Of a DNA stretch of 64,000 nucleotides, positions 15,713-53,991 are shown in pieces; the first letter of the stretch is position 1, and each line of letters opens with the position of its first letter. The DNA is taken from the NCBI GenBank assembly GCA_947502975.1, contig CANNBV010000001.1, positions 186,001 to 250,000 on the forward strand, given 5' to 3'. The DNA is from an uncultured Flavobacteriaceae bacterium (GTDB lineage Bacteria; Bacteroidota; Bacteroidia; Flavobacteriales; Flavobacteriaceae). The position numbers and the translations under genes were made by a program. Below the pieces are notes generated by a model. That model ran no database searches and was not told the DNA's origin. It saw nothing but the letters and a program-made list of their open reading frames with translations.

Positions 15713-15945
15713 TTAATCATTAAGTTTCAGCATCGCCATAAATGCCAGTTGAGGTATCTCTACATTACCAATTTGGCGCATACGGTTTTTACCTTTTTTC
15801 TGTTTTTCCATAAGTTTATGTTTACACGAAATATCACCGCCGTAACATTTAGAGCTCATATGTTTGTCAAGTGTTCTAATTAATTCACAAGAAATAATTT
15901 TGTGCTAATACCCCTTTTTAATAGCAGGAATATCGAACATTAACA
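15713..15945 (-). pseudogene. lepA 3'-end remnant (EF4 C-terminal fragment)
   Basis: On the minus strand this reads [13 protein letters not shown], then [20 protein letters not shown], then [20 protein letters not shown] and LND plus stop, aligning with the last 61 residues of the intact LepA (20999-22795). By hand count, 44 of 61 residues match. Further upstream, FDIP is still recognisable (15931-15937 region), but an in-frame TAG and mismatches break the frame, and beyond about 15945 the similarity stops. It is in the same orientation as lepA and 5 kb from it, with a four-gene plus-strand cassette between the two. No start or ribosome site is present, so it cannot be a functional GTPase. 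Confidence 0.88.
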
Positions 15946-20892: not shown

Positions 20893-20897
20893 TTTTT

Positions 20898-20976
20898 GGG
20901 CGTTACCCGCAAGGGGTCGGGCTTTCACTAGTCGCTCTCTGCGAGGAGCTCCAACATACCGTTCAATCCCTAACGC
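20898..20976 (+). ncRNA. structured intergenic element, copy 1 of 5 (possibly Flavo-1-type RNA or REP-like repeat)
   Basis: It starts GGGCGTTACCC and ends CAATCCCTAACGC. The end helix is GCGTTA with TAACGC. Hairpin A is ACCC-GCAA-GGG(G)T, the conserved strand is GTCGGGCTTTC, and hairpin B is GCTCT / AGGAGC. It lies between the LytTR gene stop and the convergent lepA stop. Related copies are at 25145, 29640, 43296 and 53904. Whether it is transcribed is unknown. Confidence 0.6.
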
Positions 20977-20998: not shown

Positions 20999-22795
20999 TT
21001 AATCATTAAGTTTTAAAACCGCCATAAACGCTTGTTGAGGTATTTCTACATTACCAACTTGGCGCATACGTTTTTTACCTTTTTTCTGCTTTTCTAGAAG
21101 TTTTCGTTTACGGGAAATATCACCACCATAGCACTTAGCGGTTACGTCTTTACGTAAAGCTTTAACCGTTTCTCTGGAGATGATTTTGGCGCCAATGGCC
21201 GCTTGAATTGGAATATCGAACTGTTGACGTGGAATCAACTCTTTCAATTTTTCACACATCTTTTTACCAATATGTTGCGCATTATCCGCATGAATTAAGG
21301 CCGAAAGTGCATCAACAGATTGCGCATTCAATAAGATATCTAAACGTACTAATTTTGATGGTTTCATACCAATTGGATGATAATCAAAAGAAGCATAGCC
21401 TTTGGAAACTGTTTTTAGTCTATCATAAAAATCAAAAACAATTTCTGCTAAAGGCATTTCAAAAGTTAATTCAACCCTTTCGGTAGTCAAATAGGTTTGA
21501 TTAATAATAAGTCCGCGTTTTTCAATACAAAGAGACATCACATTCCCCACAAAATCAGATTTTGTAATAATGGTTGCCTTAATAAAAGGTTCCTCTACAC
21601 GATTTAATGTAGATGGTTCAGGCAAATCAGAAGGATTATTTACAATAATAATCTCGTCTGGGTTTTTATTTGTAAAAGCATGGTAAGACACATTGGGGAC
21701 AGTTGTAATCACGGTCATATCAAACTCACGCTCTAAACGCTCTTGGATAATTTCCATGTGAAGCATGCCTAAAAACCCACAACGGAAACCAAAACCTAAT
21801 GCTGCAGAACTTTCTGGCTGAAACACCAAAGAGGCATCATTAAGTTGCAATTTTTCCATAGAAGCCCGAAGCTCTTCATAATCTTCAGTATCTACAGGAT
21901 AAATACCTGCAAATACCATAGGTTTTACGTCTTCAAAACCTTCAACAATATTGGTCGTTGGTTTTGCAAAATCGGTAATAGTATCACCTACTTTTACTTC
22001 TTTCGCCGTTTTAATTCCTGTAATTAAATAGCCAACATCACCCGTTTTTACAGTCTGTTTTGCAACCTGATTGAGTTTTAATGTCCCAATCTCATCTGCA
22101 TAATAATCTTTATCTGTTGCAACAAATTTTATATGCTGTCCTTTTTTAATTTCACCATTAAACACTCTAAAATAGGTTTCGATACCTCGAAATGTATTGT
22201 AAACGGAATCAAAAATTAAGGCTTGCAAAGGCGCGTTGGGGTCGCCTTCTGGTGCTGGAACACGCTCTATAATTGCTGATAAAATGTTGTCTACACCAAA
22301 ACCAGTTTTACCACTAGCGTGAATAACTTCTTCTGGGTCGCAACCTAATAAATCAACAATATCGTCAGTCACTTCTTCAGGATTTGCACTTGGTAAATCA
22401 ACCTTATTCAACACAGGAATAATTTCCAAATCATTTTCTAAAGCCAGATATAAGTTTGATATGGTTTGCGCTTGTATACTTTGTGCCGCATCAACAATTA
22501 ATAAGGCGCCTTCACAGGCTGCAATTGAGCGAGATACTTCATAAGAGAAATCTACGTGACCAGGCGTATCAATTAAATTTAGAATGTATTTTTCTCCTTC
22601 ATATTCATAATCCATTTGGATCGCGTGAGATTTTATGGTAATACCACGTTCACGTTCTAAATCCATATTATCCAATAATTGATCTTGTTTTTCTCGTGCA
22701 GTTACGGAGCCTGTATAGTCTAATAAACGATCCGCAAGAGTACTCTTTCCATGATCAATATGTGCAATAATGCAAAAATTCCTGATATTCTTCAT
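20999..22795 (-). CDS. lepA: elongation factor 4 (LepA) ribosomal back-translocase GTPase
   Basis: 598 residues, full family length. The G1 motif is [10 protein letters not shown] (11-20); it is followed by [19 protein letters not shown] and [11 protein letters not shown]-like domains II, III and V follow, then the LepA-specific C-terminal domain ([19 protein letters not shown]). EF4 binds stalled ribosomes and is thought to back-translocate them or assist biogenesis. It is monocistronic on the minus strand with a TATATTTG box upstream. A degenerate copy of its last 77 codons lies at 15713-15945. Confidence 0.97.
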
Positions 22796-25127: not shown

Positions 25128-25144
25128 AAATTTAATTTTTATTT

Positions 25145-25250
25145 GGGCGCTACCACAAGGGTCGGGCTATCCGCTATATCTTTTTAGTATTGGTAGCTTC
25201 GAGAACCTCAGCCACCAATACTAAAAAGGATGCCGCTTCTATCCCTAGCG
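25145..25250 (+). ncRNA. structured intergenic element, copy 2 of 5
   Basis: Its ends are GGGCGCTACC and ATCCCTAGCGC. The terminal helix is GCGCTA / TAGCGC, a compensated change from GCGTTA / TAACGC in copies 1, 4 and 5. Hairpin A is ACC-ACAAG-GGT. The conserved GTCGGGCTATCCGCTATATC is followed by hairpin B, CTTTTTAGTATTGGT / ACCAATACTAAAAAG, a perfect 15-bp stem. It lies in the 165-bp gap between two minus-strand genes. Confidence 0.65.
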
Positions 25251-25292
25251 CGGGCGTATTTGCCGTAGCATGTGTTTTCTTAAAAGACTATA

Positions 25293-29639: not shown

Positions 29640-29806
29640 CGCGAGAAGGATTGCAGCGGCATCCTTTTTGCGAAGCTTTAAATGCGGGATTAAAATTTTG
29701 GATAAGGTGTTAATGAGTAAAGAGATCCCGAAACAAGTTCGGGACTGTTTCGCAGAAAGATATAGCGGAAAGCCTGTTTGCCATTTTTGAAAATGGCAAC
29801 TCGCCC
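29640..29806 (-). ncRNA. structured intergenic element, copy 3 of 5 (minus strand, expanded)
   Basis: Read on the minus strand it starts GGGCGAGTTGCC and ends CAATCCTTCTCGCG. The terminal helix is GCGAG / CTCGC, a third compensated version. Hairpin A is TTGCCATTTT / AAATGGCAA, the conserved strand is CAGGCTTTCCGCTATATC, and hairpin B is CTTTCTGCGAA / TTCGCAAAAAG. Hairpin B has a large loop that contains a separate palindrome, TCCCGAA / TTCGGGA (29726-29744). It occupies the gap 29547-29858. Confidence 0.6.
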
Positions 29807-29820
29807 AAAGGAAATAGATA

Positions 29821-43264: not shown

Positions 43265-43293
43265 AAAACTCCGAAAATTTTCGGAGTTTTTTT
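43265..43293 (+). terminator. Rho-independent terminator after accC
   Basis: AAAACTCCGAAAA / TTTTCGGAGTTTT forms a near-perfect palindrome with T-run, 7 bp after the stop. Confidence 0.9.
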
Positions 43294-43295
43294 AT

Positions 43296-43400
43296 GGCGT
43301 TACCACAACACTTCGACAGGCTCAGTGCAAGTGGTCGGGCTTTCACTACTCAATCCCTCCTGCGTCGGGGATTTTAAACATGCCGTTCAATCCCTAACGC
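43296..43400 (+). ncRNA. structured intergenic element, copy 4 of 5 (another repeat inserted in hairpin A)
   Basis: Its ends are GGCGTTACC and CAATCCCTAACGC. The terminal helix is GCGTTA / TAACGC. Hairpin A is ACCAC / GTGGT with the dispersed repeat ACTTCGACAGGCTCAGTG in its loop. The conserved GTCGGGCTTTC is followed by hairpin B, AATCCC / GGGGATT. It lies right after the accC terminator. Confidence 0.6.
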
Positions 43401-45127: not shown

Positions 45128-47380
45128 ATGAAACGCTTAGAAAATATCATAAAAAAAATTGTTGCGTTTCGATTTGCTATTATAGCAACCCTTGCAATTT
45201 TAATGGCACTTGCTGGCTACCAAACGGTCAACAAATTAAGTATAGATAATTCTTTGTCTATCTGGTTTTTAGAAGACGATCCGAGTTATAAAGCTTATAT
45301 TGATTTTCAAGAGGAATTTGGTTCAGATGAAATTTTTATCGCTATGTTTCCTGTGGATAATGCTGTTGGGAAAGCAGAGCGAATAAGACTTTTACAACTT
45401 CATAAAGCGATAGATACATTATCATTTGTAAAAACGTCTTTCAGTTTAGCAAAAGCAAAATACCCTATTTATAACAATGGCGACATTGTTTTTGACGAAC
45501 TATACAATACAGAGCGCAGCGAAAAAGGATTGAAAAACTTATTATCTAAGTTGCCAAGCATTAGCACACAATTATTTACTCAGGATTATAAGTATCAATT
45601 TTTCTACATACAATTAAATCCGACACCTCAAATTGAGGAAAAGCGTGAGATCATTGCTGGAGATATTAGGAATACCATTGAAACATATTATAAAGATTAT
45701 TTTTTGACTGGACCTCCAGTTTTAAATGAAGCGTATAGTAAAGGGATTTACAAAGAGAGTTTACTTTTTGGAGTTTTAACGATTTTAGTTATTACGCTTA
45801 TGCTACTGTTTTTATTGCCTAACAAACGGTATTTAATTATTTCTCTACTGGCAGTTGCGGTGCCTGTCTCGTTATTATTTGGTATTATCACGTCTTTTGG
45901 TTATGCACTGAATATGATTTCAATGCTCATCCCTACAATCTTAATGGTATACAGTGTGAGTGATGCAGTACATATTATTAACATCTATCATAAAGAAGGT
46001 CTTTTAAATAAAAGCCTCAACAAAATTCAACTAATAACATTAGCAGTTCGTAAAAGTATTACGCCTTGTTTTTATACTACGCTTACGACGTTTGTGGGGT
46101 ATTTTGCGTTGTATATATCACCGCTCCCCGCATTTAAAAATATGGGAGTGTTTACTTGTATTGGTTTGATTTTAAGTTTTTTACTGGTTTATATTATTGT
46201 TATTATTGGATTCAGCTTTATGCATCTTAATTTCGAGAATAGTAAACCTGTTTTATCATTAAAAACTTTTAGTCAAACGAATTTCATCAATTGGATAAAT
46301 CGTGTAACCTCTCACTATAAGAATTCCATTATTACAGTATTTACCCTAGTTTTACTTTACGGGTTATTTGCTGTTTTTCAAGTAAAAATAGATACAGATT
46401 CTCTAGACCTTTTAGCGGAAGGAAAAGCAAAACAAGATTTACGTATTGTTGAAGAACAGCTTAATGGAAGTTCTAGGTTACAGCTGGATATTTCTATGGT
46501 AAACGGCAAAAGTATTTTGAATAAAGATGCCATGCGCCGATTGGAGGATTTCCAAAACAAGTTAGAGCAAAACCCAATAATTACGGCACCAGTTTCTATA
46601 GTTAACATTAAGTCATTTTTGGAGAAACGCTCACCCGTTTTATTTCAACCTAATATTTCTGAAGAAAACATAAAAAACACTTTAGCTTCTATTGAAAATA
46701 CAGATAACAGCTTTTTTAAACTTTTTGCAGACGACTTGAGTTCTGCAGGTATCACGATAAGTTTTAAAGAAGTAAAAACCTCACAACTCGAACAACTTTT
46801 AGTTGATATTGAAGATACTTTTAAATCATCTTTTGATACTAAAATTCATAAGCTAAAAATTAACGGATTTGCGGTGGTTTTTGCACAACTTAATAACTTC
46901 ATCTTAGAAACACAATTCAAATCGTTTTTTGCTGCCTTTTTTGTAGCGTTTTTATGCCTTTGGTTTTTTATTAAAAGTTTGAGAACAACAATTTTAGTAT
47001 TAATTCCCAATGTTTTACCACTGGCTATTTTGGCTATTTTTATGAGTTTATTAGATATTCCTTTAGATGTGTCTACAGCCATGATAACGCCAATAATGTT
47101 GGGTATTGCCATGGATGATACTATTCATTTGGTACATAAATACCGAAAGAGTAAACGTGTGCAAGGTACTGCAGAAGAACGTATGGATCGGGCCATGCAT
47201 TACACTGGTGGCGCACTACTGTCAACTACGATTGCTTTGGTAGGAGGGTTTTTAATTATAGCATCAAGTGCAACACCATCGGTAAGAGATTTTGGTGCGT
47301 TATGTGCCATTACAGTCGCTATTGCATTAATAACAGATATCTTTTATTTACCAGCGTTGTTGAAGAAGTTTGATAGATAG
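45128..47380 (+). CDS. RND/MMPL-family membrane transporter
   Basis: 750 residues with the RND duplication: one N-terminal helix (14-33), a periplasmic loop (about 34-210), a six-helix bundle (about 212-420), a second periplasmic loop and a last six-helix bundle (about 600-745). GIAMDDTIHLVHKYRKSK is the conserved segment of the fourth helix in the second half, with Asp residues, and VSDAVHIINIYHKEG is its counterpart in the first half. Such proteins move lipids or hydrophobic compounds by proton motive force. The partner is unknown. Confidence 0.85.
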   Translation: MKRLENIIKKIVAFRFAIIATLAILMALAGYQTVNKLSIDNSLSIWFLEDDPSYKAYIDFQEEFGSDEIFIAMFPVDNAVGKAERIRLLQLHKAIDTLSFVKTSFSLAKAKYPIYNNGDIVFDELYNTERSEKGLKNLLSKLPSISTQLFTQDYKYQFFYIQLNPTPQIEEKREIIAGDIRNTIETYYKDYFLTGPPVLNEAYSKGIYKESLLFGVLTILVITLMLLFLLPNKRYLIISLLAVAVPVSLLFGIITSFGYALNMISMLIPTILMVYSVSDAVHIINIYHKEGLLNKSLNKIQLITLAVRKSITPCFYTTLTTFVGYFALYISPLPAFKNMGVFTCIGLILSFLLVYIIVIIGFSFMHLNFENSKPVLSLKTFSQTNFINWINRVTSHYKNSIITVFTLVLLYGLFAVFQVKIDTDSLDLLAEGKAKQDLRIVEEQLNGSSRLQLDISMVNGKSILNKDAMRRLEDFQNKLEQNPIITAPVSIVNIKSFLEKRSPVLFQPNISEENIKNTLASIENTDNSFFKLFADDLSSAGITISFKEVKTSQLEQLLVDIEDTFKSSFDTKIHKLKINGFAVVFAQLNNFILETQFKSFFAAFFVAFLCLWFFIKSLRTTILVLIPNVLPLAILAIFMSLLDIPLDVSTAMITPIMLGIAMDDTIHLVHKYRKSKRVQGTAEERMDRAMHYTGGALLSTTIALVGGFLIIASSATPSVRDFGALCAITVAIALITDIFYLPALLKKFDR

Positions 47381-53817: not shown

Positions 53818-53903
53818 ATTTATAAATTTTTAGTTAGTGAGTAGCTAATTTACTGAAAAAAAAAGAAATTTTAACATTTGTTAAATTTGTTGAAGTTTTA
53901 TTT

Positions 53904-53991
53904 GGGCGTTACCCTATCGGGTCGGGCTTTCCGTTAATAGTTTTGGCTCGATGCGCGCCTCGCCAAAAGCTGCCACTTCAATCCCTAACGC
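53904..53991 (+). ncRNA. structured intergenic element, copy 5 of 5
   Basis: Its ends are GGGCGTTACCC and CAATCCCTAACGC. The terminal helix is GCGTTA / TAACGC and hairpin A is ACCC-TATC-GGGT. The conserved GTCGGGCTTTCCG is followed by hairpin B, TTTTGGC / GCCAAAA. It lies in the 214-bp gap between mscL and alr, which holds no gene. Confidence 0.62.

Follow-up and report, generated by a model that had tools for sequence, protein, structure and literature searches.

At positions 25142 to 25251 of a 64,000-nt stretch of DNA from an uncultured Flavobacteriaceae bacterium (assembly GCA_947502975.1, contig CANNBV010000001.1, positions 186,001 to 250,000; hereafter the window) lies a short element whose relatives in the same window share its helices while differing in their sequence. 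Is this element a structured RNA, or a dispersed DNA repeat that is selected for its fold? The original prediction, made by reading the letters, favoured selection on a fold, tentatively suggested the Flavo-1 motif and named a REP-like mobile repeat as the main alternative. The suggested name proved correct: the family is Rfam RF01705, and the element under study (e2) scores 58.1 bits against a gathering cut-off of 42, with Rfam-drawn bounds of 25156-25260.

A table in the original description answers “probably” to whether Flavo-1 is a biological RNA and regards a cis-regulatory role as improbable (Weinberg et al., 2010; PMC2864571), and a review counts it with the sRNA families of highest abundance (PMC9029176). 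No function for Flavo-1 was found in the open-access papers searched, and its treatment as a DNA-level element was not found in print in the open-access literature on palindromic repeats, MITEs and RAYT in Flavobacteria and Bacteroidetes. The family itself is thus already known; what is new here is an extended shell, a modular inner hairpin and evidence against a simple small RNA.

Copies of Flavo-1 in the window

All five predicted copies are present in the window, with lengths of 82-169 nt (strands follow the Rfam model). Copy e1 (20895..20976, minus strand, 82 nt) has the shell GCGTTA/TAACGC, hairpin B CCCCTTGCGGG and an inner hairpin of class T5 (AACGGTATGTTGGAGCTCC..AGAGCGACTAGTG); e2 (25142..25251, minus, 110 nt) is of inner class T1 (CATCCTTTTT..AAAAAGATAT). 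Copy e3 (29641..29809, plus, 169 nt), supported also by a genus-wide search for its shell pattern, has a rarer shell (GCGAGAAGG..CCTGTTTGCCATTTTT..GGCAACTCGC) around a T1 inner class that contains another palindrome (TCCCGAAACAAGTTCGGGA). In e4 (43292..43400, minus, 109 nt), of inner class T5, another palindrome (CACTGAGCCTGTCGAAGTG) makes up hairpin B, and e5 (53901..53991, minus, 91 nt) is of class T2 (AGCTTTTGGC..GCCAAAACTAT). Only e2 reaches the gathering cut-off: e3 (39.9 bits) and e5 (34.5 bits) fall under it, and e1 and e4, which were located by weight matrix, give no Rfam match at E<=1.

The weight matrix was built from arm sequences with a small pairing bonus for one base triple, and its training copies, taken from the genome, include e2. 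At a threshold of 18 the five copies score 41.9-91.4, and one extra weak match near 47328 (18.4) is probably spurious; one shuffled window scanned on both strands at the same threshold gave zero matches. The terminal pairs read from the sequence are those first proposed, GCGTTA/TAACGC in e1, e4 and e5, GCGCTA/TAGCGC in e2 and GCGAG/CTCGC in e3. The words said to be shared by the copies are not literal in all, being CGGGCTATC/CTATCCC in e2 and CAGGCTTTC/CAATCC in e3. A separate resemblance was seen between 15713-15902 and 20999-21188 of the window, two 190-nt stretches with 77% identity that are possibly paralogous genes, the second of which adjoins e1.

Architecture of the element

The element is larger than the Rfam model, its core being enclosed by an outer pair (P1) and accompanied by a second hairpin (B). 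In Rfam orientation the layout is P1 (GCGTTA), three pairs, a box ATWG, a mismatch region, two pairs and an inner helix with a variable tip, followed by the return strands with a box AWAG, hairpin B, P1' (TAACGC) and a tail CCAAA. Column information content places the edges of conservation at P1, or 1-2 bases before it, and after the CCAAA tail.

In e2, all parts of which lie on the minus strand, the 5' strand of P1 (GCGCTA, 25246..25251) and its 3' strand (TAGCGC, 25147..25152) are supported by P1 pairing over 84 copies. The core-pair covariation count described below supports the 5' strand of the first three core pairs (GGG, 25243..25245), their 3' strand (CCC, 25164..25166) and the 3' partner of the box (ATAG, for AWAG; 25167..25170), and the box itself (ATAG, for ATWG; 25239..25242) is marked by conserved G.A mismatches flanking a covarying base. 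The inner-class word CATCC (25228..25232) and hairpin B (CCCTTGTGG, 25153..25161) come from reading the sequence, the variable tip hairpin (25181..25227) from sequence, comparison with congeners and fold, and the conserved tail CCAAA (25142..25146) from column information content, conservation ending there. P1 is paired in 478 of 504 cells over the 84 copies (GT 1, AC 1, other 24), a count in which the 3' partner was chosen by likeness to the consensus and which is biased towards pairing; its alternatives include GCATTA/TAATGC and GCGCTA/TAGCGC. The copies read from G111, a member of another genus, have a different shell (TAGCC..AGCTCC) and no hairpin B.

Flavo-1 as modelled in Rfam has the same core stem with GATTG/AAAGC internal loops and is likewise a Bacteroidetes family. 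The copies here differ from it in that P1 and hairpin B lie outside the model and several inner classes fall under the cut-off or are unmatched; Rfam types the family as a small RNA, whereas what is found here tends towards a DNA-level element.

In some copies (43300-43335 of the window; C1:1151273 of the same genome) hairpin B is a palindrome CACTGAGC(C/T)TGTCGAAGTG, which gives the impression that the hairpins of Flavo-1 take up other repeats.

Covariation and retained mismatches

Outside the window, too, pairing is kept rather than sequence, and the covariation on which the original prediction relied is confirmed genome-wide and is very strong. Four genomes supplied 113 copies, whose six core pairs make 678 cells: 647 are Watson-Crick, 14 GT, 1 AC and 16 other. 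The set comprises 55 of the 56 matches in the window's own genome (that at C1:13848 was left out), 18 of 126 in G111, 21 of 45 in G062 and 19 of 41 in G142, where one given match without flank was left out; the right arm is misplaced in at least two copies, which adds non-pairs, and one pair (p2) scarcely varies. Of the cells at the five variable pairs a fraction of 0.949 is Watson-Crick, whereas 500 shuffles, in which relatedness is not preserved, reach 0.559 at most; mutual information is 0.55-1.18 bits inside these pairs as against a mean of 0.09 between different pairs.

Since a covariance model favours paired copies, detection was repeated with the tested columns blanked. This recovered 115 copies, overlapping the 113, with WC 647, GT 15, AC 6 and other 22 of 690 cells, and gave zero matches on one strand of shuffled sequence; the matrices and patterns derive from model-found copies. 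The second shell type gave WC 364, GT 3, AC 1 and other 4 of 372 cells in 62 copies, with 107 pattern-anchored copies omitted, their left arm being fixed by the pattern. A few box bases were required in both searches. A further 16 copies from named records gave WC 72, GT 4, AC 4 and other 16 of 96. Two other counts were set aside: a first regex count that admitted many false copies (WC 552, GT 60, AC 38, other 178 of 828), and a tip-helix count (WC 797, GT 45, AC 9) in which one tip is common to many copies and loop positions are included.

What do the exceptions to Watson-Crick pairing say about the molecule that folds? GT exceeds AC by 22 to 11 in the combined counts (p=0.08), as would suit RNA. 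G-U pairs, on the other hand, amount to about 2% in Flavo-1 as against 6% in 19 tRNAs of the analysed sequences (WC 386, GT 25, AC 0 of 411 pairs), a comparison in which tRNA detection itself demands pairing. At pair p5 the 113 copies have T-A 66, A-T 32, G-C 12 and A.A 3, with zero G-U. Beside such flipping pairs, three mismatches (A.G, G.A and A.G) are retained in 113, 111 and 105 of the 113 copies, although the detection model and patterns leaned on some of the same columns. Pairs kept beside kept mismatches point to selection on a folded strand, because template-switch correction alone should not give both. The element is a shell, made up of the outer pair, the 3' tail and, in this genus, hairpin B, around an imperfect stem that covaries by near-strict Watson-Crick rules and keeps its G.A mismatches.

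Folding energy is weak evidence, three of the five copies being no better than shuffles as RNA. As RNA, e1 to e5 have z-scores of +0.29, -3.85, -2.77, -1.00 and -0.47, and in e1, e3 and e4 the fold of lowest energy differs from the covarying one. For e1, e2, e4 and e5 the opposite strand as RNA gives -0.83, -2.94, -1.42 and +1.07 and the Rfam strand as DNA gives -0.60, -5.24, -1.78 and -0.20, so that energy does not separate strand or molecule type.

Inner-hairpin classes and their possible exchange

The inner hairpins belong to a few classes (here T1 to T5) which reassort with the shells and differ between species at one locus. Class tests in the window's genome covered 55 copies, comprising T1, T2, T3 and 2 unclassified, with T4 and T5 missing because the Rfam model listed no such copies. 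Here inner class shows no dependence on p0p1 (p=0.35), p5 (p=0.82) or P1 (p=0.95) but a link to the bases immediately within the box (p9p10, p=0.0005; m7, p=0.0025 and 0.0065). One identical 21-nt tip occurs in 10 copies with 10 different arm pairs and in both shells. The independence of class and shell is clearest in the window's genome and has weaker support elsewhere: the link of class to p9p10 recurs in G111 (p=0.002) and G062 (p=0.0005) and is absent in G142 (p=0.29), and in G062 class is also linked to p5 (p=0.042).

Congeners allow the same question to be put locus by locus, with classes assigned by eye. The e1 locus, comparable on both flanks in three congeners, holds T5 here, T1 in G154 and G150 and a decayed element in G152. 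At the e2 locus T1 is found here and in G154 and G150, T4 in G153 and G158 and a decayed element in G152, and the element is absent in G149, G151, G156 and G157. The e3 locus has T1 here and in G153, G154 and G116, T5 in G152 and G158 and T4 in G150, while its unusual shell is constant up to small changes across those congeners; no element was seen at this locus in G151. At the e4 locus T5 is found here and T1 in G154, the other five genomes compared having no intact element, and the e5 locus, with one comparable congener, has T2 here and no element in G154. The unusual shell of e3 recurs, with one mismatch to the pattern, at a second locus of the window's genome (C3:471477), where this genome and G157 have T4, and G152, G154 and G158 have T5; G155 has T5 in the same unusual shell with a different left flank. 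At two orthologous loci, then, one outer shell encloses different inner classes (T1, T4, T5) across related species.

How could a hairpin change in place? Gene conversion over short tracts, or else template switching, may carry inner hairpins from copy to copy, with tract edges that would fall at the conserved ATWG/AWAG box. Part of the class change is replacement of the middle helix, because T4 and T5 have much of their tip in common, and ordinary gene conversion is possible because the two unusual-shell loci could donate to each other. A more specific proposal, that an undescribed dedicated system acts on the folded single DNA strand and swaps inner hairpins at the ATWG/AWAG box, so that shells would stay fixed while hairpin cassettes circulate, is distinctly unlikely.

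A palindrome GATTGCCACGTCG..CTCGCAATGACG sits within Flavo-1 tips of the window's genus. It resembles another, CATTGCGAGGAACGAAGCAA..TTGCTTCGTTCCTCGCAATG, which, in the genus of G111, stands in place of Flavo-1 in some species and next to it in others (L252, L257, L270 and L263, upstream of the ATGAAAAA.. gene).

Distribution, orientation and persistence

Whole-genome search of the window's own genome gave 56 Rfam matches, 35 of them above the cut-off, and 56 is a lower bound since e2 is the only one of the five window copies listed. G111 has at least 126 copies, and within this one family numbers range from none detected to at least 126. With strict filters, which lose weak matches, Flavo-1 is present in 100 of 149 genomes of the family and 44 of 296 of the phylum.

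If the element acted within transcripts, would its copies be oriented with the neighbouring genes? Of 55 copies in the window's genome, 17 lie sense, 16 antisense, 13 between convergent and 8 between divergent genes, with 1 undetermined, and 3 of the 55 overlap a called ORF (ORFs by a simple rule). Across three genomes, this one and two complete ones (20 of 22 listed copies placed in G062, 19 of 22 in G142), 27 tandem copies are sense and 34 antisense (p=0.44); in G142 by itself 3 are sense and 12 antisense. Replication-strand bias is not significant, with 17 leading and 27 lagging copies (p=0.17; change points set by eye).

In the genus of G111, 121 genomes were searched for one locus and the 30 best loci examined. 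The element is still there, with the same gene downstream, in 22 of the 30; in 7 it is missing or reduced to a remnant, and 1 is not resolved. Such persistence hints that the element moves little or is of use where it lies. Three of the 7 loci without an intact element carry a different palindrome at the site, and in G220 the element was lost between short ATAG repeats. Neither a target-site duplication nor a clean empty site was seen in congeners, where flanks are about 69-88% identical and intergenic flanks too diverged. The 11 intervals between closely spaced copies, judged by eye from first residues, showed ordinary-looking genes and no mobiliser. Carriage of e2 by phages or plasmids was rejected, as it gave zero matches in 50,697 phage records, and of 72,556 plasmid records 2 matched it in part.

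Relationship to RAYT transposases and other repeats

The window's genome encodes two RAYT-type Y1 transposases. Their tyrosine motifs, YIHQNP and YIHNNP, agree with subclass 2.6 as published; for the HUH motif they have NHVH and SHVH, where the published form is NH[LIV]H. TnpAREP of this subclass (group 5) are described as having atypical structures on their flanks, of which further copies lie in other parts of the genome (PMC6006769). Flavo-1 could accordingly be the REP of the local RAYT, mobilised by it in trans. Across 149 genomes, presence of Y1 and of Flavo-1 is indeed positively associated (49 with both, 51 with Flavo-1 only, 10 with Y1 only, 39 with neither; odds ratio 3.7, p=0.0007, genome size and relatedness uncontrolled). 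However, the two RAYT genes each adjoin a GCTGGCGC-type palindrome with Flavo-1 not beside them, as judged from a permissive Rfam scan and by reading, and one RAYT read in G111 likewise adjoins a GCTGGCGC palindrome and not Flavo-1. None of the three is an obvious mobiliser, because a different palindrome adjoins each, and RAYT was rejected as the partner of Flavo-1 on the strength of these three genes. Moreover, 12 of 25 genomes with at least 15 listed copies have no Y1 gene at E<=0.001, as is true of 51 of the 100 Flavo-1-positive genomes (Y1_Tnp), in which a diverged or lost RAYT is possible. The reading that makes Flavo-1 the REP of the local RAYT is therefore very improbable.

The palindromes flanking these three RAYT-type Y1 genes, from two genera, start GCTGGCGC(T/G)AG (L001 1030-2160; L002 1200-1920; L230 4730-5440), and L001 carries a second palindrome, CACACGAAAGGATTCGTGCGGTAG, too. 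The GCTGGCGC(T/G)AG palindrome is apparently the REP of RAYT group 5, called “atypical” in the part of the literature that covers it (PMC6006769).

In a wider sense the likeness to REPs and REPINs is considerable: Flavo-1 is short, intergenic, multi-copy and hairpin-forming and has persistent populations. The RAYTs checked, however, do not adjoin Flavo-1, which occurs also in genomes with no Y1 match and differs in being larger, with three helices; no GTAG/CGTC foot was noticed in the copies read. Bacterial MITEs are similarly non-coding and dispersed with inverted terminal bases, but no target-site duplication was seen for Flavo-1 at the divergence of the congeners, and its inner sequence varies by class while the shell is kept. 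The attC sites of integrons lie in cassette arrays and have the R-box order AAC..GTT. Flavo-1 shares with them an imperfect stem, a terminal structure that varies, and GTTA/TAAC close to its ends; identity with attC was rejected because these ends are reversed (GCGTTA 5', TAACGC 3') and the copies are dispersed, not in cassette arrays.

Nature of the element

On balance Flavo-1 is probably, if by no great measure, a REP-like, non-autonomous, intergenic DNA element that is inherited at fixed sites over the long term and occasionally amplified. Selection would then act on a single DNA strand in its folded form, to which a protein would bind in trans; strand-neutral dispersal, rare G-U pairs and kept mismatches would all be accounted for in this way. 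Points against this DNA reading are that no mobiliser was found and no target-site duplication seen at the divergence of the congeners, the persistence at one locus and the association with Y1, and the lack of a significant replication-strand bias also counts against it, because single-strand transposition would predict one. Of the original prediction, the preservation of pairing over sequence stands, whereas its reading as a structured RNA is made doubtful by the neutral orientation, scarce G-U and high copy number; the REP-like alternative fits better, with the reservation that a fold with fixed mismatches is kept and that the RAYTs checked are not adjacent.

A structured RNA element within transcripts, whether a stabiliser in a 3' or 5' UTR, a protein-binding RNA or a small RNA as Rfam and the original prediction have it, accounts for the strong covariation. 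G.A mismatches kept on one strand are a form well known in RNA internal loops, and the excess of GT over AC agrees with an RNA as well, as does the element's retention, at one locus in the genus of G111, ahead of one and the same gene. In F. psychrophilum, according to the relevant part of a transcriptome study, several 5' transcribed regions coincide with Flavo-1 matches (PMC9723704). The same part of that study gives no sense or antisense preference and many matches outside transcribed regions (PMC9723704), and with the near-neutral orientation overall, the G-U fraction below that of the tRNAs and a copy number so variable within one family, an RNA seems rather unlikely. Covariation might alternatively arise with no selection on the fold, through template-switch mutation (quasi-palindrome correction) that perfects hairpins by changing both arms together; mismatched intermediates are scarce and of mixed type, and p5 passes between T-A, A-T and G-C with no G-U, which would suit it. 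The three mismatches retained beside flipping pairs weaken it, because a correction tract should erase them, and we regard it as quite improbable.

If the favoured reading of a DNA-level element is true, sRNA annotations of Flavo-1 mislead and sRNA counts are inflated. Change of an inner hairpin in place, with shell and pairing preserved, would be an unusual way for a repeat to evolve, and a question that dates from 2010 becomes testable: whether some protein recognises the folded strand, and which one.

Among the matches listed for the Flavo-1 pattern, most are Flavobacteriaceae by name. A Bacteroidales MAG from water-buffalo cecum has three exact matches to the pattern, on three contigs (L322, L345 and L362).
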